Assembly: GCF_015265475.1 (NCBI RefSeq)
Contig: NZ_CP054493.1
Span: forward strand, 2,232,001 to 2,296,000
Direction of reading: 5' to 3'
Length of the DNA stretch: 64,000 nucleotides
Source: Candidatus Sulfurimonas marisnigri
GTDB lineage: Bacteria > Campylobacterota > Campylobacteria > Campylobacterales > Sulfurimonadaceae
The translations under genes were made by a program, and so were the position numbers. Below, one piece after another: positions 1 to 16,033 of this stretch (position 1 is the first letter of the stretch; the number at the start of each line of letters is the position of its first letter). The notes beneath the pieces were generated by a model. That model had not been told where the DNA came from. It saw only the letters and a program-made list of their open reading frames with translations, and did no database searches.

Positions 1-346
1 AATCACCGGAGAGCATAATATTTCTACTCATACCTTTTGTAACATACAGGTCTGCTTTATAGCCGTAGTTTTTAGATAAAAAAGAACCGACTAAAATAAT
101 CAAAAAAGAGATGTGAAATAAAAACAGACCAAGCTTTTTTAACTTGTACATCTTTGCTCTAAAGATAGCTACTATTAAAAACAGAGCTAAAACACCTTGC
201 AAAGACCAGAACCATAAAGCATCATAGATATACTCTCTTGCCATACTATGTGAAGAGCTGTTTTCTATAAACGTTCCAGTAGCAATAGACAAAGCATAAA
301 TTGCCACAAAAACAAGTGCCACTTTCATAGAAAAGAGCTTATACAT
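1..346 (-). CDS. ResB-like cytochrome c biogenesis protein, 5' part
   Basis: Reading from an ATG at 346 gives 115 codons that run off the window edge without a stop. The peptide begins MYKLFSMKVALVFVAIYALS, then has TGTFIENS, a second hydrophobic segment and a third (FLFHISFLIILVGSFLSKNYG). That is the usual N-terminus of ResB/CcsB, with early transmembrane helices and the TFIE-type motif. ResB works with CcsA in system II to deliver and attach heme to apocytochromes outside the membrane. The start overlaps the last 8 bases of the upstream ccsA gene, so the two are translationally coupled. The gene is incomplete here, so fusion at its far end cannot be judged. Confidence 0.8.
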   Translation of the reverse strand, partial: MYKLFSMKVALVFVAIYALSIATGTFIENSSSHSMAREYIYDALWFWSLQGVLALFLIVAIFRAKMYKLKKLGLFLFHISFLIILVGSFLSKNYGYKADLYVTKGMSRNIMLSGD

Positions 347-1958
347 TTTTTCTATCCTTGTACGAAATAGCCACTAAACCAAAGAGGCTTAAAGCACCAA
401 TATAAGCATACCAAGGTACACGAGAACCACTGTCGCTTGCATATACATGTATAGCGTCAAAAAAGTAGTTTACACCAAAATATGTCATTAAAATAGTACT
501 AAATCCCAAAACCGACATTACAGAAAAGAGATAAACCCCGCTTCTCTTTGCAATAAATCTAAAATGGAGTATGAACATATAAACTAGTATAGAGATAAAT
601 GACCAAGCCTCTTTAGGGTCCCATGCCCAGACTCTTCCCCACGATTCATTTGCCCATACGCTTCCAAGCAGTGTACCGATTACCAAAAGAGAGAGACCAA
701 AAATCATAGATGCTTCATTTGTTTTATAAGACTCTTTGATTTGTTTAGCTACATGTAGAGAGTTTTTAGAAAATTTAAAAAGCACAAGAGTGATAATTCC
801 AAGCATAAAACTTAAGGCCAAAAATGCGTATGAGGCACTAATAATCGCTACATGTATAACAAGCCAGATAGATTGCAAACTTGAACTAAGTGTTGTTATT
901 CTAGGGTCAATCCAGCTTAGATGAGCCGCAAAAAGCATAACTCCAGCCATAAATGTAGTAACTCCAAGAGCAAAGTTTGATTTCTTAGAAAATATCAACC
1001 CAACAAGCAAGATTGCCCAAGCTATAAATATCATAGATTCATAAGCATTTGTCCATGGCGCGTGAGTGCTGATGTACCATCTTAGCCCAAGATTAAAACT
1101 ATACAGAGCAAAAAGTCCATATAAAATAAAATTAGCACTTTTTTCAATCAACATGTAGTTTTTTTCTCTAAGCACTTTTATAAAACTTAGAACTAATAAT
1201 AAGAGTCCAACTATTATATAAAATGGATAAATTTTCTCAAATATCAAAATCTTGTTATAAAAAAGTTCAGCGTCCACTTTTTCTTTAGTTAGTAAAACCT
1301 TAGAACCATAAAGCTTTTGAAACTCAGCAATCTTTTTAACCATCTCTTTGGCTAAATCAACATCGCCACTGATTAAAGCTTTTTTATTTAAAACCAAGAT
1401 TTTTTGAACGTCAAACTTTTGTGAACCACTAAATTTTTCTTCATATGTTTTTGGAGACAACCAACTGTTTTTTTCATCATTAGCCAATGGGAAGATTTTT
1501 AAATAGCCTTGAGTGTAAACATACTTAGCAACTTGAAGTTTTTCATCTATTTTTAACAGCTCTTTATCATAAGCTGTTCTTTGGCTTGCCTCTTTTTTGT
1601 TTGCCTCAGCAACTTCAAGCATCAAAGTATAAATACCATCTTTGTAAAAATCATTATAACTTTGCACTTTTGAATTGTATTCAAGCATAGGAACTTTTTT
1701 CCAAAACTCTGGAGCAAAAGTCATCCCTAAAACAACTTGATTATGATTAAGCCCAAACAACTCTTTTTTTCTTGTAAGTTTATTTAAAACATCCATATTT
1801 AGAGTGTCAAGCGGTTTCATACGGCCATCGCCGCTTTGAACACTCAAGCGGGAAAAAACCTCAGCATAACCTTTATCTAACTGGTATTTTAAAACATCAT
1901 CTTTTACGAAAGAAAAAAGCATGGTTGTAAAAAATAATAAAATTAAAAAAAATCGCAT
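339..1958 (-). CDS. ccsA: CcsA-type cytochrome c synthetase subunit
   Basis: Membrane heme-handling subunit of the system II cytochrome c synthetase. The 539 residues start with a hydrophobic leader, followed by a periplasmic region of about 220 residues (SGDGRMKPLDTLNMDVLNK) like the linker in fused CcsBA proteins. A bundle of transmembrane helices follows, holding the tryptophan-rich heme motif WGRVWAWDPKEAWS near residues 439-452. Campylobacterota normally make one fused CcsBA of about 900-1,100 residues; here the CcsA half is its own gene and ResB follows, overlapping by 8 bases. It starts directly after the stop of the preceding gene. Its place at the end of a cytochrome operon suggests a dedicated heme lyase. 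Confidence 0.9.
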   Translation of the reverse strand: MRFFLILLFFTTMLFSFVKDDVLKYQLDKGYAEVFSRLSVQSGDGRMKPLDTLNMDVLNKLTRKKELFGLNHNQVVLGMTFAPEFWKKVPMLEYNSKVQSYNDFYKDGIYTLMLEVAEANKKEASQRTAYDKELLKIDEKLQVAKYVYTQGYLKIFPLANDEKNSWLSPKTYEEKFSGSQKFDVQKILVLNKKALISGDVDLAKEMVKKIAEFQKLYGSKVLLTKEKVDAELFYNKILIFEKIYPFYIIVGLLLLVLSFIKVLREKNYMLIEKSANFILYGLFALYSFNLGLRWYISTHAPWTNAYESMIFIAWAILLVGLIFSKKSNFALGVTTFMAGVMLFAAHLSWIDPRITTLSSSLQSIWLVIHVAIISASYAFLALSFMLGIITLVLFKFSKNSLHVAKQIKESYKTNEASMIFGLSLLVIGTLLGSVWANESWGRVWAWDPKEAWSFISILVYMFILHFRFIAKRSGVYLFSVMSVLGFSTILMTYFGVNYFFDAIHVYASDSGSRVPWYAYIGALSLFGLVAISYKDRKNV

Positions 1959-2423
1959 CTATTTATCCTCTATAGGAGTATTAACCTCTTTTATTATCTT
2001 AATATGATTTATCTTCCAAGTGCCATCTTCCAATTGAATAAAGAAGTACCTCATATCATAGTCAGTTTTTACAGGTTCTGAGGAAACTTTTTTTCTAAAT
2101 ATATCTATATATCTGTATTTCCACTTCTCATGCGTGTCGAGTGTAGCAGTAATGCCATCTTGATTAAACTCACCAAACTTTATACCTAGAAGAAGGGCAT
2201 CCATAAATAGATAGTTGTCCTGATAAGACTCTAGCCAAATCCAAGTCTTAAAATATATCTCTTGCGTTAGATACTCTTGTAGATGGTCAAACTTCTTTTT
2301 TTTCGCTGCTAAAAGGACTCCGTGATTATACGAAACAACAAGCTCTCTAAAAGGCTTGTTATCTACTTCACTAGCAAATATAGTGAGTGAAAAAAAAATA
2401 TAAAATATAAAATATTTAGTCAT
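1959..2423 (-). CDS. small secreted protein, possible IMS/NTF2-like domain
   Basis: A 154-residue protein with a short N-terminal signal peptide (MTKYFIFYIFFSLTIFAS). The remainder is soluble, with a helical first half and a beta-rich second half (ATLDTHEKWKYRYIDI, then DYDMRYFFIQLEDGTWKINH). That pattern of paired strands ending in a 'dGtWKI' strand resembles ARC6-like IMS or NTF2-like folds, but this is a weak resemblance and no function can be assigned. It contains no heme motif. It sits between the large cytochrome (12-base gap) and ccsA (no gap), so it is probably a periplasmic accessory of the electron-transfer system or of heme attachment. Confidence 0.6.
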   Translation of the reverse strand: MTKYFIFYIFFSLTIFASEVDNKPFRELVVSYNHGVLLAAKKKKFDHLQEYLTQEIYFKTWIWLESYQDNYLFMDALLLGIKFGEFNQDGITATLDTHEKWKYRYIDIFRKKVSSEPVKTDYDMRYFFIQLEDGTWKINHIKIIKEVNTPIEDK

Positions 2424-2435
2424 GTCTCTTAAATC

Positions 2436-4580
2436 TTACCAACCGGTTGGCTTAGTCTCTGCTGTACCAGTTTGGTCACCAGACCTATGCTTATCACTAC
2501 AGCTAGGTCCATTTGCTAATATTTGATTTGCATTCCAAGTTGCACTACCTTTTGCTATTCTAGTAAAATAAATCTTATTTCCATTGTAATTATATGGTGC
2601 TGGAAAAGTAGTCATGCCCAACAATCTTGACATAGGAGAACCATGAGGAATTGCGATATGACATCTTACACATTCCAAATTCATCTCATTTCTTTCAGTG
2701 TGATTAGGTCCACCTTGTTCTATAAAGTGACAATTTCGACAAAAGACACCTGGGTTGTTTCCACTATTATTACTACTACCAGATTTAAATAGGGTTCCTC
2801 CTGAATCAGCTGGCCAATAATTATCAGTATTTTTACCTTTTAGCATAAACTTATAACTAGAACCATGAGGACCTTTTGGGTCAGTCCCTGTCTCATCAGC
2901 TGCTCCATGACAATCACTACAGTACATAGTCTGAGTACCTTCACTTTTCCATGGATCTCTCATCTCACTATCTTGTAAAGCTTTTGGAGAATTACTTCCA
3001 GTTCTACTACCGAGTGCAACATTTACAGGGTGACCTGAGCGGTTATTGACATTAAACTCCCACGCAACATCTGTAAAATTTACATTTGCATCACTAAATG
3101 TCACATATGCTGAGTGTGCAGGACTATTTGTCATCGTATCTCCATTCGCTCCATCAGCACCTATCCCCCAATATGAGTGACACTTAAAACACACCTCATA
3201 CTCATAAGTAGCAGTTTCGAGTGTTGTAAATGTTGTTGGCTGCTCCCATCTAGCTGTTGATGTAAAGGATGTTGGTCTAACTCCGCTAGCACCTTTTAAC
3301 GGACCTTCATTTGCTCCATTTACTATAAGGTTTGTGCCAGCACCGTTAGTTGGGTACAAAGAACCTGGTAGTGTACGGCTAATCTCTTTTACCTGATGCT
3401 GATTATGACAGTCCATGCACTCTACATGTTGAGAACTAGTCCAATCTATACCACTTGTTGGACCTTGATCATTTGTTACACCCGCACCATAAATATAATC
3501 TAGATTTGTGTGCTTTATATTTCCATTGCTATTTCTCAATGTGAATCCATGACCGTATTGCTCACTCATAGCAGTCTCTATGTCTTTTCCACCTGATGCA
3601 CCACCTGAACCGTGACATGGAGCTGTGCTTACTGTATCAGATGCTCCTTGGTAACATGTTTGCTCCTGCACTCGTCTTGTTAAATACTGGTCGTCACCTG
3701 CATTATGAGGAGTATGACAATTTACACATTTCATGTCAGATACCTTTGTACTAGCTCCATTTGAAAATTTAGTATTCACAGTTGAGTTAGTATAGGTAGC
3801 AGTTTTAACATCATGCGTGCTTCCTACAAAATTATCTTTTACATGACATGACATACATGTAGTTGCTATATTTTGTCCATGTGTCGCACCTGTATCTACT
3901 CGTAAAAACTTTCCATTCTCTTTGTGTGGGTCATGACATGAGATACACTCTACAAACTTTTGACCAGGATATCCTAGATATTCACGAAGCACTATTGGTG
4001 AATCTGGGGTAGCCTTTAGTTCATTGCCTCTAGATGCAGATTGTGAATGTGGAGCACCAGCTGACGGCATTGTCATAGTTTCCCCATATGATACTGCTAC
4101 TGGATGATGCTTACCTAAATCAGTACCTATAAAAGCACTACTACCACTCAACATTGTCCCATCACCAGCAACACCACCCATAGCAATATCACTACCATTA
4201 CCACTACCTGGAGCATTTGTAATAGCGCCAATAGCTACAGTTCCATCATGACAACTAAGGCATTGTCTAGATATTGTTCCTGGTTCTCCATTTGCACTTC
4301 CTAATACTGATGGCATTGGATACCCTGTTCTTCTCAAATAATCACTATCATACATAGTATAAGCACTAGCAGGCATACTTCTGTTCCATAGTGGGGCTCC
4401 AACAGGTTCTGCTCCATGTGGGGTATGACAAAAAACACAAATTTCCGTTTCTGACGTAGCTTTTACTGTTCCTCCAGTGTTACTAACGGAAAGATTATGT
4501 TTTGTGTTTACAATTCCAGCAAAAAGAGAGACTGATGCAAAAAATGATATTCCTATAACAAATAATTTAATAAACCTCAT
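2436..4580 (-). CDS. large multiheme cytochrome c with two abnormal heme motifs
   Basis: A 714-residue exported cytochrome (signal peptide about 1-21) with ten CXXCH motifs at residues 48, 107, 212, 242, 285, 388, 464, 554, 614 and 637. Two further sites are abnormal: C309-X12-C322-H323, and CSDKH at 694-698, where lysine replaces the second cysteine. Residues 27-246 (KHN, CHTPH, CLSCHDG, HHPVAVSY, CHDPH, CMSCH) match the spacing of the neighbouring 270-residue tetraheme protein, so the N-terminus is a paralogous four-heme module followed by a longer heme-bearing extension. The gene ends a tight operon with two NHL propellers, a PPIase and an outer-membrane barrel, and is followed by ccsA/resB. 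A role as periplasmic or surface electron-conduit cytochrome is inferred. Confidence 0.9.
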   Translation of the reverse strand: MRFIKLFVIGISFFASVSLFAGIVNTKHNLSVSNTGGTVKATSETEICVFCHTPHGAEPVGAPLWNRSMPASAYTMYDSDYLRRTGYPMPSVLGSANGEPGTISRQCLSCHDGTVAIGAITNAPGSGNGSDIAMGGVAGDGTMLSGSSAFIGTDLGKHHPVAVSYGETMTMPSAGAPHSQSASRGNELKATPDSPIVLREYLGYPGQKFVECISCHDPHKENGKFLRVDTGATHGQNIATTCMSCHVKDNFVGSTHDVKTATYTNSTVNTKFSNGASTKVSDMKCVNCHTPHNAGDDQYLTRRVQEQTCYQGASDTVSTAPCHGSGGASGGKDIETAMSEQYGHGFTLRNSNGNIKHTNLDYIYGAGVTNDQGPTSGIDWTSSQHVECMDCHNQHQVKEISRTLPGSLYPTNGAGTNLIVNGANEGPLKGASGVRPTSFTSTARWEQPTTFTTLETATYEYEVCFKCHSYWGIGADGANGDTMTNSPAHSAYVTFSDANVNFTDVAWEFNVNNRSGHPVNVALGSRTGSNSPKALQDSEMRDPWKSEGTQTMYCSDCHGAADETGTDPKGPHGSSYKFMLKGKNTDNYWPADSGGTLFKSGSSNNSGNNPGVFCRNCHFIEQGGPNHTERNEMNLECVRCHIAIPHGSPMSRLLGMTTFPAPYNYNGNKIYFTRIAKGSATWNANQILANGPSCSDKHRSGDQTGTAETKPTGW

Positions 4581-4592
4581 TTCAACCCCTCT

Positions 4593-5591
4593 CTATTTAG
4601 ATATATTCAGGCGTTTAAACATCTGAACTCTTTTATTATTTGTATCGCTAATGTATATTTTATCATTTTCTGATATAGATATATTAACAGGCAAAGAAAA
4701 CTCACCAGCTCTATTGCCATATCTACCTAAAACAAGCAGTAATTCACCTTTTTGATTAAAAATCTGTATAGCATTAAAGAGTGTATCACTCACATAAATA
4801 TTTTCATCACTATCAACTGCTATACCTCTTGGATTTACAAAACTACCTATCTTTTCCCCTACATTACCAAATGAACTTATGTAGTTTCCATCTTTATCAA
4901 GTATTTGCACACGATGATTTAAAGAATCTGTAACATATAGTTTGCCATTTTTACCAATTGCAATATATGTTGGTCTATTAAATTCTCCAGCCTTTTTTCC
5001 AAAATTACCTATAGAAAAAAGGAACTTGCCGTTAGTATTCATTACATGTATTTGGCTAGATACTGCGTCTACAATATATAAGTTTTTATTCTCTGGGTTT
5101 ATGGCAACACCTACTGGTCTCTTAATCCTAACATTTTGTATAATATGCTTAAAATCTCCATCTTCTTTAAAAACAAATATTTGTGCACGAACAGAATCAG
5201 AAACATAAATATTTCCTTCATCATCAACACAAACACCAATAGGGTATAAAAATGGCTGTTTACTTGATCCCTTTATATCTATGATTTCATCATTCTCTGT
5301 GTCAAATACATAAACAGACTTTAACGAAATATCTGTTACATAGATTTTATTTTTTACAATTTTTAAACCAAAAGGTGCTAAGAGTTTAAAATTATCTTCT
5401 CCAAAAACAAAATCACTAAGCTTAGAAAAAAAACCTTTTTTTACACCTGCTTGAGCTGCTGTAGAAAATGAATCTATGTACTCTATACGAGCAGGGTCAG
5501 GCTCTTGAGGCCAATATAATCTCTCTTGTGTCCCTGCATATAAACTCATACCAATAAAAAAAACAAACATTAACTTTATAAAATTCCTCAC
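4593..5591 (-). CDS. periplasmic NHL-repeat beta-propeller protein
   Basis: A 332-residue protein with signal peptide MRNFIKLMFVFFIGMSLYAG and six repeats of the type 'P.GIAVD..GNIYVSDT.N.RIQVF...G'. Examples are GVCVDDEGNIYVSDS near 120 and GIAVDSDENIYVSDT near 255. This gives a six-bladed NHL propeller, a scaffold for protein contacts rather than a known enzyme. It is closely similar in layout to the lipoprotein encoded at 8336-9475, so the two are probably duplicates within the operon. The gene lies 12 bases from both the barrel gene before it and the large cytochrome gene after it. I infer a scaffold or assembly role around the cytochrome. Confidence 0.85.
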   Translation of the reverse strand: MRNFIKLMFVFFIGMSLYAGTQERLYWPQEPDPARIEYIDSFSTAAQAGVKKGFFSKLSDFVFGEDNFKLLAPFGLKIVKNKIYVTDISLKSVYVFDTENDEIIDIKGSSKQPFLYPIGVCVDDEGNIYVSDSVRAQIFVFKEDGDFKHIIQNVRIKRPVGVAINPENKNLYIVDAVSSQIHVMNTNGKFLFSIGNFGKKAGEFNRPTYIAIGKNGKLYVTDSLNHRVQILDKDGNYISSFGNVGEKIGSFVNPRGIAVDSDENIYVSDTLFNAIQIFNQKGELLLVLGRYGNRAGEFSLPVNISISENDKIYISDTNNKRVQMFKRLNISK

Positions 5592-5603
5592 CCCTATCTC
5601 CTT

Positions 5604-7397
5604 TTAAAAATTTCTTACCAATTTTGCTCGCATAATTCCTCTAGATGTATATGTATCCTTAATAGAGCCGACTGTCATTGAATACATATAATCATAAGAT
5701 AATGTAAAAATTGTTTTACCAGCTACATACTTCATAGATGCACCACCTCCATAGGACACTTGCTTAGCAGTAAAATTATTAAGAGCTCTAGCATTTGATT
5801 GAATAGACAACTTCCTTCCTACGTATTGAAAGTTCAGAGATGAATTCGCACTAGAAATATCACTTGACACATCTTCAGTAATCAAACTATCATATGTATA
5901 ACCTGCCGATGCTGATATGGTGCTTCTTAAACCTATCCTTCTATTATACGACAAATTTGAATTATTACCATAAGATACAACAGTAGTGCCTTGCTTTAGT
6001 TGATAAGATGCAACAAATTTATTTGTAAGATATCCCAAGTAAGTTTCTAAATTTACGCTTGTGCGCCATGTATCACTGCTATCTTCTTGTGATTGCATAA
6101 CACGATTATATGAAGTAACAATTGTACCATTAGACCTTAGTCTTGGCAGGTTTTCTCTTAATGAAGCTCTAAGACTAAGAGTTAGTGTTTTATCTAAGCT
6201 ATCTTCTTCGGCACTAGTTTGATTTTCATCAAAACGTTCTGTTGTGTTACTCACTACATTCCCAACAAGTGAACTAGTGGTAATAATATTTCTTTGGTTA
6301 AATAAATTTATAGTTTTGCTGTATGTAGTTATTAGATTGAACATTGCTCTTTTATTCATATAAATGTCGTCTTGTGTAGTAAAATAACTTGCATTTTGAC
6401 CAACTAAAAGCCCTGGCAATATATTATAGCTAAACATCTGATTTAAATTTATCGTGCTAATTGAATTAGACCCTTCTGTAGGATTAGAAATATTATTATA
6501 ATCATATGGGGAATAATCTGTATTAACGATATCAAGGCCAATGGAGCCTAGTATATCTTTATTTGGTTTCCAGTTTAATACAATATTTCCATAGGCCACT
6601 TTAGTTTCAAGATTGCTCACATTATTGTCAATAGTAGTACTTTGATACAATAAAGAAGTATCCAGCTTAAAACTTTGACTTGGATAATAACTATAACTAA
6701 AATCAACAACATTATCTTCGCTATCTATTGCATTAGAATTTACATTATTTGTATCTACTTTTCGAATGTTATTTAGAAATCCTAATTTAAAACTTTGTCC
6801 AGTGCCTTTATAGTTTAAATTTACGCCATATTTAGCATCAGTTTCTTTTTCAGAAGTATTGCTTGAGTTTTTCTTGTTTTTACTTTCATTAAGATAATAG
6901 TTTAATCCAAATTTACCCAGGTCTACAGAACCACCAAAATTATAATTTTCTATAGTTCTTAAATAGTATATAGAAGTACTATTAGCATCTACTCCTATTT
7001 CTATTGAAGGTTCAGTAAACTTACTGTAGCCTATACTAAATGGGACTTTCGTACTTTTTAAAAATGAAAAATCACCACCATAATTATTACTTTGTGAGCT
7101 ATTATCATTTTTAATATTTGACATTGAATCATTTTGCTTTAAGTCTGAATAGTCTAAAGATCCATATACCTTATATTGTAAAATTTTTGGATGATAAACA
7201 TTTCCATCGTACAATAACTTATACTTTTGTGTAAATGTTTCTTCACTGTTCTTATAGTCTTGGGTTTCACTTTGATCATCTTCATAGTTAAACTCAATAT
7301 TACCACTTAAACCCTTGTCTGGATGATTTTTTGCCAGAACAACAGGTGAGCAAATTAACACAAGGCAAACAAAGGTTAAACAAAAATTCTTCATCAC
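5604..7397 (-). CDS. outer-membrane beta-barrel, candidate electron-conduit porin
   Basis: A 597-residue protein with a signal peptide ending near VVLA (residue 22). It is rich in Ser, Asn, Tyr and Thr, with alternating hydrophobic strands throughout, and ends in phenylalanine (AKLVRNF), the usual C-terminal signal for insertion by the BAM machinery. No plug or TonB box is visible. It also lacks the N-terminal CXXC of MtrB, so it is not a plain MtrB homologue. It lies inside an operon with a multiheme cytochrome, a PPIase and two NHL propellers. By analogy with porin-cytochrome complexes I infer that it encloses a cytochrome across the outer membrane. Ordinary outer-membrane roles remain possible. 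Confidence 0.75.
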   Translation of the reverse strand: MMKNFCLTFVCLVLICSPVVLAKNHPDKGLSGNIEFNYEDDQSETQDYKNSEETFTQKYKLLYDGNVYHPKILQYKVYGSLDYSDLKQNDSMSNIKNDNSSQSNNYGGDFSFLKSTKVPFSIGYSKFTEPSIEIGVDANSTSIYYLRTIENYNFGGSVDLGKFGLNYYLNESKNKKNSSNTSEKETDAKYGVNLNYKGTGQSFKLGFLNNIRKVDTNNVNSNAIDSEDNVVDFSYSYYPSQSFKLDTSLLYQSTTIDNNVSNLETKVAYGNIVLNWKPNKDILGSIGLDIVNTDYSPYDYNNISNPTEGSNSISTINLNQMFSYNILPGLLVGQNASYFTTQDDIYMNKRAMFNLITTYSKTINLFNQRNIITTSSLVGNVVSNTTERFDENQTSAEEDSLDKTLTLSLRASLRENLPRLRSNGTIVTSYNRVMQSQEDSSDTWRTSVNLETYLGYLTNKFVASYQLKQGTTVVSYGNNSNLSYNRRIGLRSTISASAGYTYDSLITEDVSSDISSANSSLNFQYVGRKLSIQSNARALNNFTAKQVSYGGGASMKYVAGKTIFTLSYDYMYSMTVGSIKDTYTSRGIMRAKLVRNF

Positions 7398-7406
7398 TTC
7401 TTGAAT

Positions 7407-8339
7407 TTACTTTATTATCTTTGCTTTTTTCTTTAACTTCTCAAGAAGCTCGTCTCGTTTAATTTTCTCTTCTTTAGTTTGTAAGTCTTTTTTTAAATTA
7501 TCTTTTATCTTGCTGAATGGAAGCTGCTTCGCTTCACCTTTTTCAATGACTTCTACTATATAACAACCCAGACCTCGTTCCATAACCTCACTAAGTTCCC
7601 CAGGCTTCATTTTAAACACTTCTTCTTCTATACTAGCAGTTATCTGTCCCTTATGCATAAAGCCCAAGTTACCACCCTTAACACGACTCCTGTCACTAGA
7701 GTATTTTTCTGCCACTTCCTCAAATGATGTGCCACTTTTGATTTTTGCTAATGCTTCATCTGCTTTTTTCTTTGCCTTTTTATTCCCTATAGGGTCCATT
7801 GGATTGTTTTTTATATATATCATTTTGATATTTATTCTCTCTGGCATTTTAAACTTGTGCTTGTTGTTTTTATAATATTCTTTAAGCTCTTTTTCTGTTG
7901 GTACGCTTTTTATGTTTTTTTCATAAACTTGAGCTAAAACTAACTCTTTTTTAAATGCATGCATATATAAATCGAAGCTAGTACGTTTCTTCTGAAAATA
8001 AATATCTAGTTGAGCTCTTGAATTATTTGCAGCCTTAAGAAGTTCCTTTTTTCTAGTATCTAAATCCTCTTGCTTTGGTTTAAAACCTTGTGAAAGTCCA
8101 TAAGTATAAAAAATATTTATATTTATAAGTTCATCTAAGGCTTTTTTTATCAACTCATCTGTTTTTGCTTTTTTTAAATTTGTATGAAAAGAAATTCTAG
8201 GCAATAGTTTTTCAACAGTATAATTAAGTTCTTCTTGAATTATTGCTGTTCCGTTTACTACTGCAACTGTATTTTCTGGAAGTACTGTCGCATGAGAAAA
8301 AGACAAAACAATAAAAAGTGAAACTAATATCTTTTTCAT
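7407..8339 (-). CDS. periplasmic parvulin-type peptidyl-prolyl isomerase
   Basis: A 310-residue SurA/PpiC-like chaperone-isomerase. A signal peptide (about 1-18) is followed by a helical N-terminal chaperone region (30-150). One parvulin domain lies at about 160-265, with EEVAEKYSSDRSRVKGGNLG and PGELSEVMERGLGCYIVEVI. A basic tail follows. The start overlaps the stop of the upstream lipoprotein gene by 4 bases and the barrel gene follows after 9 bases. In this setting it probably folds the beta-barrel or the proline-containing multiheme cytochromes. From memory, PPIase genes recur next to extracellular cytochrome genes in Geobacter; I could not check that here. Confidence 0.9.
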   Translation of the reverse strand: MKKILVSLFIVLSFSHATVLPENTVAVVNGTAIIQEELNYTVEKLLPRISFHTNLKKAKTDELIKKALDELININIFYTYGLSQGFKPKQEDLDTRKKELLKAANNSRAQLDIYFQKKRTSFDLYMHAFKKELVLAQVYEKNIKSVPTEKELKEYYKNNKHKFKMPERINIKMIYIKNNPMDPIGNKKAKKKADEALAKIKSGTSFEEVAEKYSSDRSRVKGGNLGFMHKGQITASIEEEVFKMKPGELSEVMERGLGCYIVEVIEKGEAKQLPFSKIKDNLKKDLQTKEEKIKRDELLEKLKKKAKIIK

Positions 8340-9475
8340 TTGTCACCATCCTTTTTTGTCTGTTTTTCTTTTTCTTTTCTTTCTCTTTCTAAAACAGCTT
8401 TAGGTGTATAATCTACATACTCTTTGTACTTTAATGGATTGTTTTTTTGCCATTTTTCACTTAAGTATTGAAACGACTGTACTCTTCCTGAAAAGCCATC
8501 AGCTATAATTAGTTTATCATTTTCATCAATATACATCCCCGAAATAAGTCTAAATGTTGCTGGTTCTACGAATCCTGCATGACCAAAATAAGTCATTATC
8601 TCACCTTCTTGATTAAAAACTTGAACATTATTAAATGCACTATCAGCTACATAAATATGCCCTTCACTATCAATACCTACCCCTTTTGGTCTTGCGAAGT
8701 CACCAGGTCTATCACCAACCTTACCAATACTTTTTATAAACTTTCCATCTTTATCAAAAATCTGTACTCTAAAATTTTGTGTGTCTGTTACTACAAAATT
8801 ATTGTTTCTTCTATCTATGGCAATATTTGTAGGGAAGTTAAATTCTCCATGAGCATTACCTCTTTTACCAACTTTATACAAAAGCTTTTTAGTAGCCAAA
8901 TCATAAGCTTTTACATCATGTGCTTTTGTATCTACAACATATAATCTATGAAGCTCCTTATCAATAGCTATCCCTGTTGGTGCTGTAAAGTCTAAGCGAC
9001 TTCCAAGAGTAAAAACTAAAGTTCCTTCTTGATATCCTGTAATTTTTTTTGCTAATATATCACTTATATACATTATGCCATCTTTATCAAAAGCTATAGA
9101 AACAGGACTAACAAAACTAGCTCCCTGGCCAGCGCCCAAGTATGCTACTTTTTTTGTTTTTTCATCAATTATAAAAACAACTCTCGTTCCTGTGTCTACT
9201 ACATATATTTTTCCATTTTTAAAAGCTACACCATAAGGTTTTACTATAAGAGGGTTTTGGACTTTTTTACTAGTATCACCAGTTATACTGTCTAATAAGT
9301 TAGTTTCTTCCTCTTCAACATTTTCACCTCTATATGTGTCTAGGTAAACAATACGTGGCTTATCAGGATATGGAGGAAACGCTAGCATTTCTTGTTTTAT
9401 CTCTTTTACTTTTGTTGAGCATCCTATAAACATAAGTTGCATAAAAATAAAAAGCACAGCCAATATCAGTTTCAT
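8336..9475 (-). CDS. NHL-repeat beta-propeller lipoprotein
   Basis: A 379-residue lipoprotein whose signal ends in the lipobox FIGC (cysteine at residue 19). Six NHL-type repeats span about 75-345, for example GVAFKNGKIYVVDTGTR, NIAIDRRNNNFVVTDTQNFR and GVGIDSEGHIYVADSAFN. A charged tail rich in Lys and Glu closes the protein. It heads the long operon: 72 bases separate it from the YceI-like gene upstream, while the PPIase gene overlaps it by 4 bases. It is a paralogue of the soluble NHL protein at 4593-5591. Anchored to a membrane, it probably scaffolds the cytochrome-barrel assembly; no enzymatic residues are evident. Confidence 0.85.
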   Translation of the reverse strand: MKLILAVLFIFMQLMFIGCSTKVKEIKQEMLAFPPYPDKPRIVYLDTYRGENVEEEETNLLDSITGDTSKKVQNPLIVKPYGVAFKNGKIYVVDTGTRVVFIIDEKTKKVAYLGAGQGASFVSPVSIAFDKDGIMYISDILAKKITGYQEGTLVFTLGSRLDFTAPTGIAIDKELHRLYVVDTKAHDVKAYDLATKKLLYKVGKRGNAHGEFNFPTNIAIDRRNNNFVVTDTQNFRVQIFDKDGKFIKSIGKVGDRPGDFARPKGVGIDSEGHIYVADSAFNNVQVFNQEGEIMTYFGHAGFVEPATFRLISGMYIDENDKLIIADGFSGRVQSFQYLSEKWQKNNPLKYKEYVDYTPKAVLERERKEKEKQTKKDGDK

Positions 9476-9547
9476 ATAACAATCCTTAAATTAAATAATT
9501 ATTTTTATTGTAGCAGATGAATTTAAACAATCTACTGTAAATATAGT

Positions 9548-10135
9548 TTAGTAGCAAATTTCATCTATTTTTATTATTAAACTAGCATGAACATCATCCC
9601 ATGTTACTCCTAAATGTTCACCACTACATGCATTGTCTAGTGAGTTCAATGCATCACTTGCATTAAAATCTCTCATATAGATATGCCACCTTGCATGAAA
9701 TTCTCCTTTTTTTATAAAGTAAGATGTTTTAAGCTCTTTTTTAACGCCATTAAAGTCTAACTCAATAGTAATATAACCACTTTTTTTATAAATTTCCTTA
9801 TCTGCTTCAACGGCTATAATTTTAGCTCTAATATCTTTTTTTATTATCTTTTTAAAAAAATATTCCTTCAGATTAGGTATTATCAGATCTTCTTTTGAAC
9901 CAATGTCTACTATATTTATAATTACAGATGAGCCAACAAGTAGTTGCTTCAAAGTTGGTGCTTCATTTTTGGCAGGAGAGTACTTGATATCGTTAAAGTG
10001 GCTACCCATAGCAACTTTAAATTCTGTCTTATATCCTCTAAAGAGAACTTCTATATTGTTTTTTTGTGTAAACTTACAGCTATATGCCTGAGCTAAAACA
10101 CTAAAAAAAACAAGTGCTACAATACTTTTTTTCAT
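9548..10135 (-). CDS. YceI-like periplasmic protein
   Basis: A 195-residue protein with signal peptide MKKSIVALVFFSVLAQAYS. The rest alternates beta strands in YceI fashion (EVLFRGYKTEFKVAMGSHFN; SGYITIELDFNGVKKELK), with three cysteines (20, 170 and 194 approximately). YceI-family proteins fold as lipocalin-like barrels, often binding isoprenoid lipids. It has gaps on both sides and a TATAAT-like box upstream, and the upstream tetraheme gene ends in a strong terminator, so it is probably transcribed separately. Its role next to the cytochromes is unknown; a quinone- or lipid-binding function is only a guess. Confidence 0.6.
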   Translation of the reverse strand: MKKSIVALVFFSVLAQAYSCKFTQKNNIEVLFRGYKTEFKVAMGSHFNDIKYSPAKNEAPTLKQLLVGSSVIINIVDIGSKEDLIIPNLKEYFFKKIIKKDIRAKIIAVEADKEIYKKSGYITIELDFNGVKKELKTSYFIKKGEFHARWHIYMRDFNASDALNSLDNACSGEHLGVTWDDVHASLIIKIDEICY

Positions 10136-10207
10136 CTAAAATTCCTTCTGATTATTATGCGTATAATGATTATTATATAGTGTTTATGTAAATGGGAGAA
10201 AAAGGGC

Positions 10208-10242
10208 AAAAAAAAAGGCAGATGCTAAAAGCACCTGCCTTT
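10208..10242 (-). terminator. rho-independent terminator of the tetraheme cytochrome gene
   Basis: On the minus strand a 9-bp GC-rich stem (GGCAGGTGC paired with GCATCTGCC, one G-U pair) with a 5-base loop is followed directly by nine U residues. It lies 20 bases beyond the tetraheme stop codon. It is the clearest terminator in the window and separates that gene from the YceI-like gene. Confidence 0.9.
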
Positions 10243-10262
10243 GCGAACAAACAAGAGTATAC

Positions 10263-11075
10263 TTATTTGTCGTGACAACCAATACAAAGCTGAGAACCTT
10301 TGTTAGTATGACGAAGATAACTAACTTCACCTGTACCTTGTGCTGAACCTGTTGCATTATGTGGATCATGACATGAAACACACTCAACTTGATCATTAGA
10401 AGAACCTCTTAGTAGATCCGACACTTTAGGAGTTGCAGGAGCACCTGGTACTAGCCATGCTTGATCTCCTGCTGGTAAAGTAGTTGCAGTTGTTCTTAAA
10501 GAAGCTCTTCCTGGAACATATGTAATAGAAATTGGATGATCATTTGATAAGTCAGCTACACCATCAGCACCACCAGCACCTGCATCATATGAACCACCAG
10601 CACCAATATTACCGCCATTCAATGAGCCAATACCAGTCATACTCATATTACCATCTTTTAGACCGCCCATACCAGAACCTGGAGCATTTAATATAGAGTT
10701 AACAGCAGAAATACCATCATGACATGATAAACATACTAAAGATGGATTCGCTGGTACAGTACCATTATTATCACTTCCACCAATCGTTTTACCATACATC
10801 TTGTAACCAGACACACCAGCCGTAGGCTTGTTTAGTGAATCTTTATTCCAAAGTGGCGCACCTGAAAAAGCTGTGTTAGCCGCGTGAGGCGTGTGACAAT
10901 ATACACAAATTTCACCATTATCACCAGTAGTTGCACCACCAGTTCTTACGCTAATGTTGTGTGGACTACCAGTAGCAGTAATCGATTCACCACCATAAGT
11001 AGCACCTGAAGTACCCGCGAAAGCCATTGTTGTTGTTAACAGTGAAGCTAATAACAATTTTAATTTAGTATTCAT
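10263..11075 (-). CDS. exported tetraheme cytochrome c, candidate filament subunit
   Basis: A 270-residue protein with a signal peptide ending AFA (residue 20) and four CXXCH motifs at 57, 115, 232 and 264. Candidate distal histidines are H39 (SPHN), H64 (CHTPH), H180 (NDHP), H239 (CHDPH) and H256. Long Gly/Ala/Ser stretches separate the motifs, especially residues 130-175. The same module is repeated at the N-terminus of the 714-residue cytochrome. The gene has its own consensus sigma-70 promoter, a GGGAGAG ribosome site and a strong terminator, which suggests high monocistronic expression. Size and heme number are like the tetraheme cytochromes that polymerise into extracellular nanowires (OmcE type), but homology to those is not proven. 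A periplasmic shuttle is the alternative. Confidence 0.9.
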   Translation of the reverse strand: MNTKLKLLLASLLTTTMAFAGTSGATYGGESITATGSPHNISVRTGGATTGDNGEICVYCHTPHAANTAFSGAPLWNKDSLNKPTAGVSGYKMYGKTIGGSDNNGTVPANPSLVCLSCHDGISAVNSILNAPGSGMGGLKDGNMSMTGIGSLNGGNIGAGGSYDAGAGGADGVADLSNDHPISITYVPGRASLRTTATTLPAGDQAWLVPGAPATPKVSDLLRGSSNDQVECVSCHDPHNATGSAQGTGEVSYLRHTNKGSQLCIGCHDK

Positions 11076-11130
11076 AATATCTCTCCCTTTGCATATAGTA
11101 AATTACTTATATGTTTTGTTGATATACAAT

Positions 11131-11159
11131 ATTATATCTATTAATCTTAATAATTGCAA
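11131..11159 (-). promoter_or_regulatory. sigma-70 promoter of the tetraheme cytochrome gene
   Basis: On the minus strand TTGCAA (11159-11154) and TATAAT (11136-11131) are separated by exactly 17 bases. They lie about 55-84 bases before the start codon. A good ribosome site (AAAGGGAGAG) precedes the ATG. The near-consensus -35 is notable because Campylobacterota promoters usually lack one. Confidence 0.75.
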
Positions 11160-11200
11160 CAAGCATCAACTAAGAATTTTATTTTATCAAAAATTAAGTT

Positions 11201-11227
11201 ACAGAAAGTAACACAGTTGCTTTCTGT
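11201..11227 (-). terminator. hairpin directly after the octaheme cytochrome gene
   Basis: An 8-bp perfect inverted repeat (ACAGAAAG / CTTTCTGT) with an 11-base loop abuts the stop codon of the octaheme gene. A U-rich stretch follows about 7 bases later on the minus strand. It is a weak terminator or a 3'-end stabiliser that separates this transcript from the tetraheme promoter. Confidence 0.5.
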
Positions 11228-12253
11228 TTACTTTTTATGGCATCTTTGACATACGTTAAAAGGATGGGAACCTTCCATTCTAAGTAAATATATCCCTGTG
11301 GATCCATGAGGGTTATGACAGCTTGTACAAACGAATTCCCTTCCTGGCCGTGCTGGGTCTGCTCTATCTTTTGTTGGGTGAGCTCCTGCATTTCTTGAAA
11401 AAACAAATCCTGAAACTATATGGTTGCCCGGAATCGCTTTTTCCGTATGACAAGTTGTGCACAAGTCCCAAATATGCTTACGAAGAAAAAACTCATTGTC
11501 AGAGCCGTGTGGATTATGACATCTTTTACATCTTCCATCATTAACTGGGCCATGTCCATATCTGCTTGCTTGCCACCCCTCTACAGTATCATGACAATAT
11601 GCACAAGTTTTTGCGATTGGATCAGGTGCTAAATATTTCGTAAGTCCTTCATCGTCTATGTTGTATTCAGCACCTTTTCCATTATGACAAATCGTACACA
11701 ACCAGTTAGCAGCAGGAGCATGCGTACTTTTGGTATTTAACTTACCGCTGTGACACTTATAACATGTAGTTTCTGAGACATCATCAAATGGTTCATCTTC
11801 AGGAGGTATATTATTTGTCATATCATGACAAGATTTACACTTCTCTTCCTCTTCTTCTGAATGAAAATAATTTTTATCATACTGTTCAGCATCATATACA
11901 TCTACACCAGGGAGTACATCATTGTAAAAGTAAGACTCCCTTTTATCACTACTAAGAAGTTTACCATCTTTATATGCTTCAATAAAAATTGTATTTACTG
12001 CTGGATGAAGCTCAACGGTTTTACAATACGTATCTTTTTCTGATGTTACATCTATTGTTGTATTTATATCGCCTTGTCTAATAACTATCTTATCTACACT
12101 TTTATGATTTGCTTCAATTACAAACGTGCTGTCTTTTCCTTCGTATCTTGTATAATCAAAAGGTTTCATGATTTCAATAAAAGATGAAGCTTCTTCAGCT
12201 TTGCCGCTTAAAGCGACAAGAAGAAGAATAAAGAAAAGATATATTGTTTTCAA
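11228..12253 (-). CDS. octaheme cytochrome c with N-terminal beta domain
   Basis: A 341-residue exported protein (signal about 1-19). Residues 20-120 are heme-free and strand-rich (SFIEIMKPFDYTRYEGKDST, VNTIFIEAYKDGKLLSSDKR), like an immunoglobulin-type carbohydrate- or protein-binding domain. Eight CXXCH motifs follow at 139, 164, 186, 217, 242, 265, 309 and 335; several are of the doubled 'CHNPHGS' class. It follows the 12-site cytochrome by 8 bases and is followed by a hairpin, so it ends that operon. A periplasmic or surface electron carrier whose N-terminal domain binds a partner is a reasonable inference. It does not look like a known octaheme nitrite, hydroxylamine or tetrathionate reductase. 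Confidence 0.85.
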   Translation of the reverse strand: MKTIYLFFILLLVALSGKAEEASSFIEIMKPFDYTRYEGKDSTFVIEANHKSVDKIVIRQGDINTTIDVTSEKDTYCKTVELHPAVNTIFIEAYKDGKLLSSDKRESYFYNDVLPGVDVYDAEQYDKNYFHSEEEEEKCKSCHDMTNNIPPEDEPFDDVSETTCYKCHSGKLNTKSTHAPAANWLCTICHNGKGAEYNIDDEGLTKYLAPDPIAKTCAYCHDTVEGWQASRYGHGPVNDGRCKRCHNPHGSDNEFFLRKHIWDLCTTCHTEKAIPGNHIVSGFVFSRNAGAHPTKDRADPARPGREFVCTSCHNPHGSTGIYLLRMEGSHPFNVCQRCHKK

Positions 12254-12261
12254 GACCAGAT

Positions 12262-13503
12262 CTATTTCAGGTTGACTTTTGGAGTCTCTCTATCGTAGTG
12301 GCGACGAGCATGACAAGCTGGCGCACATGAACCGCCATTTTCAGTTTCAATATAACGAATTGGAAAATTTATTCTTCCAAACTGTGTTTTCTTTCTTAAG
12401 TGGTGTGGGTACTCTTTTGTTCCATGAAAATCATGACAAGCACGACAAGAACGACCTTTTATTTTGTTAACATGCACAAAGTGTATATTTTTATCACCAT
12501 TTCTAAAGTTAGTTGCTTCAATTGTAAACTCTGCTTTAATTTTATCTGGTTCATGACACTGAAAACAGATATAATTTTTTTCGTCAAAACTTTCATAAAA
12601 AGTTCTAGGAAATGGTTTTTTTAACATTCTTAAGTTGTTTGAGCCATGAGGATTGTGACATGCAGCACAATCACCCCAAAGTATTGGACCATGCCAATCT
12701 GGATTATCTTCAAGATGTTTTGCAATATTTTGAAGCTTGTACCCTGTCTCATCAGTTTTTAAAGACTCATTGTGACATGTTAGACATAACTCTTTTGCTG
12801 TATCTTTAATAATAAACTTTGGATGCTCAGAACCATGAGGGTCGTGGCACTCAAGACATTTTCTTGGTCTATCAATTGCTCCATGCTTATCTGTAACTTC
12901 TGCTATCCAAACTTTTTTATCTACATGACACATAAGACAGATATCTTTTTTACGGTCAGCTTTTAGTTGGTAAAGATTATCTTCAGTGTGAGGATCATGA
13001 CAGTTTGTACACTGATCTTTTACTGGTGGGTGAATATATGTAGTATTGTGTAAAAACTTATCTTTTGCCTCGTGACACGATGTACAAAGCTCATTGATAC
13101 TAGCTCTAACCAAAAGTTTTGCGTTTGGTGATTCATGTGGGTTATGACATGCTGTACAAGCACCTGCTCCTACTGGTCCATGAATAAAATTCTTAGTATC
13201 TTTTGGTTCATGGCACTGGTAGCACAATTCTGGAGTGTCAAGCTTTAAATCTTCTCCATCTTCAGGGTTAGCTCCCTCATGACAAACAGTACAGTCTCCC
13301 CACTCATATGGAGGGTGAACAACTTTTTCATCTGCTCTTAGTGCAGTTCCGTAAAACTTCTCTTTTTCAGTTAAAGCGAGAGTTTCAGTTTCAGCTTGAG
13401 CACCAGCCATATCTGCACCAAAATCTTCAGCTGCCATGATACTTGTACATGTTAGCAATAAAGAGATAATTATATTTGCTATGTAGAAACGATTATATTT
13501 CAT
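12262..13503 (-). CDS. dodecaheme-type cytochrome c
   Basis: A 413-residue exported cytochrome with a signal peptide of about 24 residues and an acidic linker. It has eleven CXXCH motifs (71, 94, 116, 140, 165, 189, 216, 240, 279, 313, 353) and a twelfth site with one extra residue, CAPACH at 393-398. Many sites are doubled CXXCH pairs with CHNPHES, CHDPHTE and CHDPHGS, typical of periplasmic electron-storage cytochromes. It is 8 bases before the octaheme gene and 17 bases after the monoheme gene, forming one operon. The family is used as wires rather than enzymes, so a periplasm-spanning carrier is inferred. Confidence 0.85.
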   Translation of the reverse strand: MKYNRFYIANIIISLLLTCTSIMAAEDFGADMAGAQAETETLALTEKEKFYGTALRADEKVVHPPYEWGDCTVCHEGANPEDGEDLKLDTPELCYQCHEPKDTKNFIHGPVGAGACTACHNPHESPNAKLLVRASINELCTSCHEAKDKFLHNTTYIHPPVKDQCTNCHDPHTEDNLYQLKADRKKDICLMCHVDKKVWIAEVTDKHGAIDRPRKCLECHDPHGSEHPKFIIKDTAKELCLTCHNESLKTDETGYKLQNIAKHLEDNPDWHGPILWGDCAACHNPHGSNNLRMLKKPFPRTFYESFDEKNYICFQCHEPDKIKAEFTIEATNFRNGDKNIHFVHVNKIKGRSCRACHDFHGTKEYPHHLRKKTQFGRINFPIRYIETENGGSCAPACHARRHYDRETPKVNLK

Positions 13504-13520
13504 TTTTTACCTTTTCTTAT

Positions 13521-13886
13521 TTATCTTTGTCTTGGTCTATCAGCAGCTGAAACCAGATATGTTGCGAGAGCCTTCATTTTGTCATTTGAAAGAGTCTTAA
13601 TTTTTGCCAATTGCGGGTTCATAACAGGTGCGCGGTCTGGATAAACTATAGGGGTTCCCAATGAACTAAGATAAGACACTAAAGAACTCTCTTTACCTGT
13701 ATATGCAGTCGCTATTGTCATTATTGATGGACCAATTAGCTCTTTGTCTAATTTATGGCAAAGGGTACAACCTTTTGATTCGAAGATTGCTTTACCCTTT
13801 GCTTTGATAACATCATCTGAATCTTCTGCTATAACATTAGAGAAAAACAATATGCTAAAAGATAAACCCAATATAAATTTTTTCAT
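13521..13886 (-). CDS. monoheme class I cytochrome c
   Basis: A 121-residue periplasmic c-type cytochrome. The signal peptide ends about residue 20; CTLCH at 40-44 binds the heme, and the methionine of PVMNPQL (about residue 90) is the likely sixth ligand. The C-terminal helix ALATYLVSAA is typical of small class I cytochromes. It is the first gene of the cytochrome operon that continues to the 12- and 8-heme genes. It is a good candidate to pass electrons between the bc1 complex and the multiheme proteins. Confidence 0.85.
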   Translation of the reverse strand: MKKFILGLSFSILFFSNVIAEDSDDVIKAKGKAIFESKGCTLCHKLDKELIGPSIMTIATAYTGKESSLVSYLSSLGTPIVYPDRAPVMNPQLAKIKTLSNDKMKALATYLVSAADRPRQR

Positions 13887-13935
13887 TTAAAAGCCTTTTT
13901 TAAAGAATAGTGCGCCGATTGTAGCATAACTTTTT

Positions 13936-14388
13936 TTAAATTTCTATAATTAGGCACTCATCTTTTATATTAATATCCTTATATGTTACAAAAAAAAGTT
14001 CTGCAGCTATACCGTTTCCATATTCAATAATTTCTTTTTCACAATTTAAAATAGGAGTTGTTCCAAAGCCGCAGCTTGGGCTTTTTGATTTCAAAACAAT
14101 CTCATCTACTTCTGGATTCTCTTTTATAAATTCAATGATTTCATCTTCTAAAAGTTTTGTGATGTCTACATTTGTACTATCAGTAATAACTCTATTCTTG
14201 CCATCAACATTTACAATATTAATTTTTTCTCTTGGTGTTCCAAAAAGAGGTGCTTCTGGACAAAAAGGGATGATTTCATAATCTTTAAAAGCTTCAATGA
14301 CTTCATTTACTTTTTTTGTTTTACCATCATAGCGACAATTCTCGCCAAGTAAACAAGCAGAGATGATGACCTTTTTACCACTATTCAT
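13936..14388 (-). CDS. DUF523 family protein
   Basis: A 150-residue cytosolic protein with the family signatures SACLLGENCRYDGKTK near the N-terminus (residues 10-25) and KSKSPSCGFG near 103-112. The conserved cysteines suggest metal or Fe-S binding, but no firm biochemical role is known for this family. The whole protein is one DUF523 domain, without the DUF1722 extension. It is separated from the cytochrome operon by 49 bases and from the aldehyde dehydrogenase gene by about 100, so it may be an independent unit. Confidence 0.8.
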   Translation of the reverse strand: MNSGKKVIISACLLGENCRYDGKTKKVNEVIEAFKDYEIIPFCPEAPLFGTPREKINIVNVDGKNRVITDSTNVDITKLLEDEIIEFIKENPEVDEIVLKSKSPSCGFGTTPILNCEKEIIEYGNGIAAELFFVTYKDINIKDECLIIEI

Positions 14389-14425
14389 TTAACTCCATTA
14401 TATGAGCAAAGCCCATATAATTAAC

Positions 14426-14463
14426 GCTAAGCGCTGTGCTACTAAAGTTGCCTCTATCGATGC
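14426..14463 (+). repeat. degenerate copy of the palindromic intergenic repeat
   Basis: This intergenic stretch contains CGCTGTG, ACTAAAG, TTGCCTCT and GATGCA in the same order and spacing as the copy at 33862-33906. The second arm is decayed (GATGCA instead of GAGGCA). I place it in the family because of the shared CGCTGTG...ACT.AAG..TTGCCTCT order; it could be coincidence. Confidence 0.4.
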
Positions 14464-14486
14464 AAAATGAATTTTAAATAAATTCA

Positions 14487-15902
14487 TTAGCAGATGACTA
14501 CACTCTTAATTTCTGTCATCTCTTCTATAGCGAACTTAGGACCTTCACGCCCTACTCCACTTAGCTTCACACCACCATAAGGCTGTATATCAAAACGAAG
14601 AGTTGGCATGTCATTTATAACTATTCCACCAGCATCAAGCTCAGATATAGCACGTTGAGTCAGCTTCAAGTCATTTGTGAAAACAGAAAACTGAAGTCCG
14701 TATGGAGAGTTGTTCATTCGAGGAATTGCATCATCAAATGAGCCAACTTTTATTAGTGAAACAATAGGGGCAAATACCTCTTCACAAACTATTGCCATGT
14801 CATCTCTTACATCAACCATAACACAAGGGTAAAACATTCTTCCCTCATGTCTTGGAGTAAGAAGAGGAGTTGCTCCCTCCTCTATAGCACTCTCTACCCA
14901 ACCCATAGCACGAATAGCCGCATCATCATCTATAAGCGGTCCCATAAAAGTATCATCTTCATAAGGAGAGCCAACTACCAATTTTTTAGTCTCTTCTGCC
15001 ATATTTTTTGCGAATTCATCATAAATATCAGAATTAACGTATATTCTCTGCAGAGATATGCAAACTTGTCCAGAGTTTACAAAAGCACCTAAAGCACAAC
15101 GCTGAGCAGCCAAATCTAAATCAGCACTCTTATCTATGTAAGTAGCTGCATTTCCGCCAAGCTCTAAAGATACTTTTTTAATGCCGGCATTTTTAGTGAT
15201 AATGCGTCCAACAGGAACTGAACCAGTGAAGCTGATAACACGTGGAATATTACTAGTAATTAAAGCACTTCCAACTTCTGCATCGCCGTAGACCACACTA
15301 AGAGCATCTTTTATGGCGAACTCACTCTCTATAAAGAGTTTTGCAAATTTATATGCCGTTAATGGCGCTTCTGGTGTTGGCTTTAAGACAACACAGTTTC
15401 CTGCAACCAAAGCAGGAGCTAGCTTATGTGCTACAAGATTTAATGGAAAATTAAATGGAGTGATTGCCACAACTACACCAGCTGGCTCTCTAGTGAAAAA
15501 TGCAGTTGTTTTTTTACCACTAGGCATTGCATCAGTGTTAATTGTTTCACCATGCATTGTTCGCATAGTCTCAGCTGACAAAGTTACTGTTTCAATACAT
15601 CTATCTACCTCAACTCTTGCAAAAGATATTGGCTTACCAACTTCATCGGTTATAGTTTTTGCGATATCCTCTTTTTGCTCTTTAAGTTTTTTTACCACAT
15701 CCAAAAGCCAGTTGCATCTTTGAGAAAGAGTTGATTGTTTAGCATACTTTGTTGCGTCCTGCGCAATTTGTAATGCTTTTAAAGCATCTTTCTCATCACA
15801 AATAGGAGCATACGAGACAACTTCTCCACTAAATGGACTTCTTCTTTCACTGCAATTATCTGTTATAGCTTCAACTGAGCCAAAAAATATTTTTGCATTC
15901 AT
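14487..15902 (-). CDS. NAD(P)-dependent aldehyde dehydrogenase
   Basis: A 471-residue class I aldehyde dehydrogenase, soluble and full length. It has the nucleotide-loop motif FTGSVPVG (about 225-232), the glutamate motif LELGGN (about 247-252) and the catalytic cysteine in NSGQVCIS (about 276-283). The C-terminal half keeps EEVFAP and the 'GGIVINDMPTLRFDIQPYGG' stretch. The sequence is of the lactaldehyde/succinate-semialdehyde/glyceraldehyde-3-phosphate type, but the substrate cannot be told. A TATAAT-like sequence lies about 50 bases upstream. Its neighbours are unrelated, so it is probably a single-gene transcript. Confidence 0.85.
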   Translation of the reverse strand: MNAKIFFGSVEAITDNCSERRSPFSGEVVSYAPICDEKDALKALQIAQDATKYAKQSTLSQRCNWLLDVVKKLKEQKEDIAKTITDEVGKPISFARVEVDRCIETVTLSAETMRTMHGETINTDAMPSGKKTTAFFTREPAGVVVAITPFNFPLNLVAHKLAPALVAGNCVVLKPTPEAPLTAYKFAKLFIESEFAIKDALSVVYGDAEVGSALITSNIPRVISFTGSVPVGRIITKNAGIKKVSLELGGNAATYIDKSADLDLAAQRCALGAFVNSGQVCISLQRIYVNSDIYDEFAKNMAEETKKLVVGSPYEDDTFMGPLIDDDAAIRAMGWVESAIEEGATPLLTPRHEGRMFYPCVMVDVRDDMAIVCEEVFAPIVSLIKVGSFDDAIPRMNNSPYGLQFSVFTNDLKLTQRAISELDAGGIVINDMPTLRFDIQPYGGVKLSGVGREGPKFAIEEMTEIKSVVIC

Positions 15903-16033
15903 GTAATTCCTTGCGTAAAAAGTTTTTATAATTATAATATGAAAAATTATACCATTAAAAAAGTAGCAAACTTATTTTATTTTAGGCTTTTAAATTTTAT
16001 GTTATTATATGGGTAGATAAACAGGAGGATGTC

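Follow-up and report, generated by a model that had tools for sequence, protein, structure and literature searches.

A split CcsA/ResB pair beside a multiheme cytochrome with CXXKH and CX12CH motifs in Candidatus Sulfurimonas marisnigri

We analyzed a 64,000-nt stretch of the Candidatus Sulfurimonas marisnigri genome (contig NZ_CP054493.1, positions 2,232,001 to 2,296,000; hereafter the window), which begins with genes for ResB and CcsA, encoded as two separate proteins, and for a multiheme cytochrome (MHC) near them (Table 1). On balance, the split pair is best explained as a dedicated System II lyase for the single-cysteine CXXKH site of the adjacent MHC, because the genome encodes two fused CcsBA synthases besides it and the split pair forms a separate clade. 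The co-occurrence of the split pair with CXXKH, the active-site changes common to split lyases and the inability of canonical CcsBA in vitro to load a peptide lacking the second cysteine all point to a synthase dedicated to a single-cysteine site.

Odd heme motifs and the lyases of the genome

MHC contains ten CXXCH motifs, and its remaining cysteines are C309, C322 and C694 only. This inventory bears out an earlier, sequence-only reading of the window, which had placed two odd motifs, CX12CH and CXXKH, beside ten normal sites. Residues C309, C322, H323 and H344 are invariant in an alignment of 15 homologues, and the CX12CH motif is present in 44 of the 45 MHC homologues in which the site is visible, the last one (locus L083; L and G numbers are our handles for loci and genomes) having CX13CH. 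The residue invariance and conserved spacing indicate that CX12CH is more than a chance occurrence, and its distribution makes it a family trait of MHC. The set of 45 comprises 49 rows minus eight duplicates, with L080b restored, plus L116 (G603), G625:C3 and G607:C217. The C694 column of the alignment also appears invariant, which proves nothing, because the alignment pairs C694 with the second cysteine of other tails. MHC residues 280-311 match the NCBIfam doubled-CXXCH domain as far as model position 34 of 41. With C285-X2-C288-H as the site just before it, CX12CH is most simply read as a CXXCH carrying a ten-residue insert.

The split pair has both domains of a System II synthase, a ResB domain (PF05140, 4.9e-22 for the full protein) and a CcsA cytochrome-c-assembly domain. 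As the sequence-only reading had it, ccsA and resB are separate genes in that order; resB starts at 346, overlaps ccsA by 8 nt, and encodes 444 residues when followed past the window edge. The pair is not a frameshifted fusion, since its gene order reverses the ResB-CcsA order of fused proteins and three loci agree. The same reading took the operon to end with this pair. In fact only the window ends in resB, and orf129, a 1473-residue open reading frame and the fused CcsBA gene fus1 (1050 residues, about 5 kb past resB) continue on the same strand. A second fused CcsBA, fus2 (1041 residues), lies at about 1.08 Mb of the same genome. The search for further fused CcsBA proposed earlier was therefore productive, and the two genes exclude the split pair as sole synthase of the genome. 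Nor do the homologues lack odd motifs, which would have counted against a dedicated role: they share CX12CH, and three share CXXKH.

Distribution of CXXKH, the split pair and fus1

The C-terminal site is visible in 42 MHC tails, which read CX4CH (17), CX1CH (8), CX5CH (6), CX7CH (3), CXXKH (3), CX2CH (2), CX9CH (2) and xxxCH (1). This table leaves out five truncated rows and a 79-residue chimeric fragment in L080, adds the contig-end fragments of G517 and G392, and takes the second open reading frame of the broken L030 gene as its tail. The last site of MHC is thus hypervariable in cysteine spacing, for example in L016, L018, L022, L023, L024 and L083. We know of no heme c precedent for the CX1CH spacing.

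All three loci with CXXKH, those of the window, genome G467 (L065) and L014, have a split ccsA-resB pair together with fus1, and the order MHC-ntf154-ccsA-resB is identical in all of them. Among the other rows, 26 have a lyase in view and it is fused in every case (no split pair in 26), while 13 more show no lyase. The association has a Fisher P value of 2.7e-4 on the assumption of independent rows, which these are not. L080 and L080b, one locus, are both within the 26 rows, and the lyases in view include the L025 CcsBA, which is encoded on the opposite strand and does not belong to the fus1 clade. No further unfused lyase was found above the cut-off in 398 genomes of the order, a draw that leaves G467 and L014 outside. 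The three CXXKH tails are otherwise nearly unrelated: across 38 ungapped positions they agree at C, K, H and a single other position. The sequence-only reading had proposed a dedicated lyase for CX12CH or the lysine site. Its lysine half gains support here (three of three CXXKH loci with the pair, none of 26 others), and its CX12CH half loses it, with CX12CH or CX13CH in 45 of 45 homologues and split pairs in three loci.

MHC was found in 21 of 228 genomes of the family and 10 of 397 of the phylum; two further sets of 22 genomes, each from another family, gave 3 and 4. These sets overlap. fus1, at an identity of at least 63%, occurs in 12 of 80 genomes of the genus; ten of these have MHC, and in G517 and G392, which make up the rest, a C-terminal piece of MHC lies beside fus1 where the contig ends. 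Every MHC-positive genome within this sample has fus1, and most other genomes of the genus have only the general lyase type, whose full-length identity to fus1 is about 42-46%. In another family, f9, MHC is present in four genomes, and these same genomes give the four best lyase matches. Judging from this co-occurrence in the genus sample and f9, fus1 looks like the dedicated fused CcsBA of the MHC cluster, travelling with CX12CH.

MHC is also carried by contigs of metagenome-assembled genomes of Persephonella (Aquificota; L023, L025, L026 and L030), with much of the cluster in L025, which reflects either gene transfer between phyla or mis-binning. Tandem MHC copies occur in G513 and G504 (L080 and L077). 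The 79-residue fragment of G513 joins an MHC start to a tail, hinting at tail recombination.

Active sites, history and competing explanations

TM-His1, TM-His2, P-His1, P-His2 and the WWD tryptophans, positioned by homology, are present in all three split pairs. In the WWD domain, all three replace Tyr by Val and Thr by Ala or Ser, unlike all 39 fused rows (two identical pairs among them). In addition, the P-His2 loop reads YFFDAIHV in the three split lyases and YYLSGLHS or similar in the 39 fused rows. Altogether 33 of 169 strongly conserved columns are changed in split lyases, eight of them at positions corresponding to fus1 residues 1002-1016. Excerpts of PMC11322641, the source of the TM-His and P-His positions, propose that P-His2 exchanges with the motif histidine and describe heme crosslinks formed by WWD residues close to these positions. 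An excerpt of PMC8112865 reports that CcsBA attached no heme to a 20-residue peptide in which Ser replaced the second Cys, by analogy the nearest tested counterpart of CXXKH.

In the lyase tree, the split lyases form one clade (support 100/100), separate from those of fus2 (100/100), fus1 (98/96; 24 rows, two identical pairs included) and nrfA-linked lyases (100/100). The ntf154 tree groups the same three loci (100/99), whereas in the NHL1 tree the window and G467 fall within their own family, and grouping the trio is rejected (approximately unbiased test, p-AU 1.15e-15). Consistent with the ntf154 tree, the window ntf154 is 53% identical to that of L014 versus 24-32% to own-family loci, while the window fus1 is 53% identical to that of L014 versus 58-74% to own-family loci. 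This conflict, together with the identities, indicates that the ntf154-ccsA-resB block, perhaps with MHC or its end, has moved between lineages. With MHC at full length, the tree tends to place the window and G467 in their own family (74/90), yet grouping the trio stays acceptable (p-AU 0.316); trees from either half of the protein bring the trio together with weak support (45/95 and 82/44). None of these trees establishes independent origins of CXXKH.

The genes, motifs, distribution, clades and residue changes are observed; from them we infer that CXXKH and CX12CH carry heme, how many thioethers hold it and which lyase serves which site. In the proposed mechanism, the split pair would be the third System II cytochrome c synthase of the genome, dedicated to the C-terminal CXXKH. 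Together, ResB and CcsA would pass heme through the membrane by way of the TM-His pair and deliver it to the WWD/P-His site on the periplasmic side. There, the altered P-His2 loop and WWD domain would accept a motif having the first cysteine only. A single thioether would then link heme to Cys694, and His698 would serve as the proximal ligand. The general fus2, the cluster's fus1 or both would load the ten CXXCH sites, and fus1 would load CX12CH. Taken to its full extent, this would make CXXKH a natural bacterial single-thioether heme c site with its own two-gene synthase and rebuilt P-His2 loop, and the cytochrome the substrate of two motif-specific lyases, the fused synthase of the cluster serving CX12CH; we put this larger picture forward tentatively, as the less probable part of the proposal.

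Several points weigh against a dedicated lyase for CXXKH. Only three loci make up the sample, two of which are closely related, and they probably represent one co-inherited cassette. Since the split pair and ntf154 form one clade each, the link between CXXKH and the split pair may be a single event kept over a long divergence (split pairs are 41% identical), rather than a repeated gain. Because System II lyases act in trans, lying next to a cytochrome gene does not prove that the pair serves that cytochrome. An AlphaFold model of MHC from 15 sequences has a mean pLDDT of 29.6 and lends no structural support at CXXKH.

These points bear on the competing explanations. CXXKH could be a decayed, heme-free protein end, with the split pair there by chance or serving other, general cytochromes; the variability of the last site across the 42 tails, the greatest of any MHC site, and a single-event origin of the linkage would fit this. 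We regard it as unlikely, given that three otherwise diverged tails all retain C, K and H and that the split pair is 84-87% identical between the window and G467, against 65-69% for MHC and about 30% for the barrel. Slightly less probable still is that the split pair serves CX12CH or the whole of MHC, as an extra copy of a role filled elsewhere by fus1. The pair does adjoin a CX12CH cytochrome in all three loci, but most of the 45 homologues with CX12CH or CX13CH have no split pair and fus1 is retained in all three split loci; on this distribution, we set aside the split pair as the lyase of CX12CH. Action in trans would also allow the pair to load a different cytochrome, from the cluster or elsewhere in the genome, and to have nothing to do with the odd motifs of MHC; the constant gene order in the three loci and the movement of ntf154 with the split pair between lineages make this quite improbable.

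Related systems and the surrounding gene cluster

The arrangement resembles Wolinella NrfI (CXXCK) and CcsA1 (CX15CH), each, according to excerpts of PMC6976685 and PMC12285233, a System II lyase encoded beside a cytochrome with an unconventional motif. Those lyases are fused proteins and serve a changed ligand or a long spacing, whereas here ccsA and resB are two genes and CXXKH has one cysteine missing. The pair is not an NrfI, as its neighbor lacks CXXCK and nrfA-linked lyases form a separate clade. It is set apart from CcsA1 by neighbor and motif, its neighbor being OmcE-related with CX12CH and not an MccA-type octaheme cytochrome with CX15CH. The canonical fused CcsBA of Campylobacterota (Helicobacter hepaticus, PDB 7s9y) shares the ResB and CcsA parts, the WWD domain and the four conserved histidines with the split pair, which differs in being unfused, in its reversed gene order and in its common changes at the WWD domain and P-His2 loop.

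Within the same genus, L106 and L109 have a CcsBA of about 800 residues beside a 505-residue cytochrome (four CXXCH and CWTCK) and a tetraheme protein of 184 or 178 residues. These neighbors look like nrfA and nrfH, so this CcsBA type is probably NrfI; a third lyase of the type, in L107, has no NrfHA-like neighbor in view. The change of P-His1 to Tyr in these lyases, beside a CWTCK cytochrome, provides a same-genus precedent for lyases with altered periplasmic sites next to cytochromes with odd motifs. One genus thus holds four lyase clades (general fus2, nrfA-linked, fus1 and split), each tied to its own motif or neighbor, and the named active-site changes make substrate choice testable through mutation or exchange of the WWD and P-His2 segments.

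Among cytochromes, heme 1 of Geobacter OmcZ has a long inter-cysteine loop of 14 residues, seen by cryo-EM according to an excerpt of PMC9473688, in a protein distinct from MHC. MHC residues 18-247 match filament-forming OmcE (PDB 7tfs; 4.2e-26 by sequence, 2.5e-35 by profile), an OmcE-type similarity that cyt270 shares. MHC, known here from sequence, differs in having about 465 extra residues with eight more sites, and its CX12CH-bearing part has no solved relative above the cut-off. Our search of the open-access literature, with most subscription papers outside it, found no paper on CX12CH with heme or on CXXKH. Single-thioether cytochromes c of Euglenozoa have (A/F)XXCH, with one cysteine per heme site. 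Euglenozoa sites keep the second Cys whereas CXXKH keeps the first, and organisms and maturation differ.

Table 1. Features of the window (position 1 is its first nucleotide) and of related loci (prefixed by locus; L032 is the locus of the window genome)
Feature	Coordinates	Strand	Remarks
resB, first 115 codons	2..346	-	Pfam ResB; runs past the window edge
resB, full length	L032:17513-18847		444 residues
ccsA, unfused	339..1958	-	539 residues; PF01578, 2.9e-36; WWD domain and heme-ligand histidines
ntf154	1959..2423	-	154 residues; secreted-looking; groups with the split pair; no Pfam family over cut-off
MHC	2436..4580	-	714 residues; OmcE-like N-terminal part (18-247) and long C-terminal part
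CXXKH site of MHC	2487..2501	-	C694-S-D-K-H698 (CSDKH)
CX12CH site of MHC	3612..3656	-	C309-X12-C322-H323
NHL1	4593..5591	-	NHL-repeat protein
Presumed outer-membrane barrel	5604..7397	-	597 residues; conserved position; "porin" is a label only, no Pfam hit
PpiC-type peptidyl-prolyl isomerase	7407..8339	-	
NHL2	8336..9475	-	NHL-repeat protein
cyt270	10263..11075	-	tetraheme, OmcE-like; OmcE match 2.8e-16
cyt341	11228..12253	-	8 CXXCH
cyt413	12262..13503	-	11 CXXCH and one CX3CH
CX3CH site of cyt413	12310..12327	-	residues 393-398 (CAPACH)
1473-residue open reading frame	L032:12616-17037	-	between resB and fus1
79-residue MHC fragment of G513	L080:7148-7387	-	
NrfI-like CcsBA, about 800 residues	L106:3749-6130		P-His1 is Tyr
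NrfI-like CcsBA, about 800 residues	L109:5017-7431		P-His1 is Tyr
NrfI-like CcsBA, about 800 residues	L107:5534-7933		P-His1 is Tyr

The order cyt413-cyt341-cyt270-NHL2-isomerase-barrel-NHL1-MHC-ntf154-lyase, or most of it, recurs in well-flanked loci, with exceptions such as L031, where MHC occurs without that order. A role of the cluster in extracellular electron transfer is likely. An Rfam scan of window positions 1-16000 gave no match, and a scan for promoters and terminators was not clearly above shuffled sequences (50 versus a mean of 41.6, standard deviation 7.0, and 4 versus 4.4). The CX3CH near the C-terminus of cyt413, a third odd site, is kept in 17 of 17 homologue rows longer than 300 residues among those listed (one duplicate pair). 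The 1473-residue open reading frame, which has the same position in G467, appears from its sequence to encode a protease of the subtilisin-like S8 type that also bears Ig-like domain repeats. The presumed barrel evolves very fast across the window, L065 and L014 loci, at 23-30% identity versus 40-85% for its neighbors.

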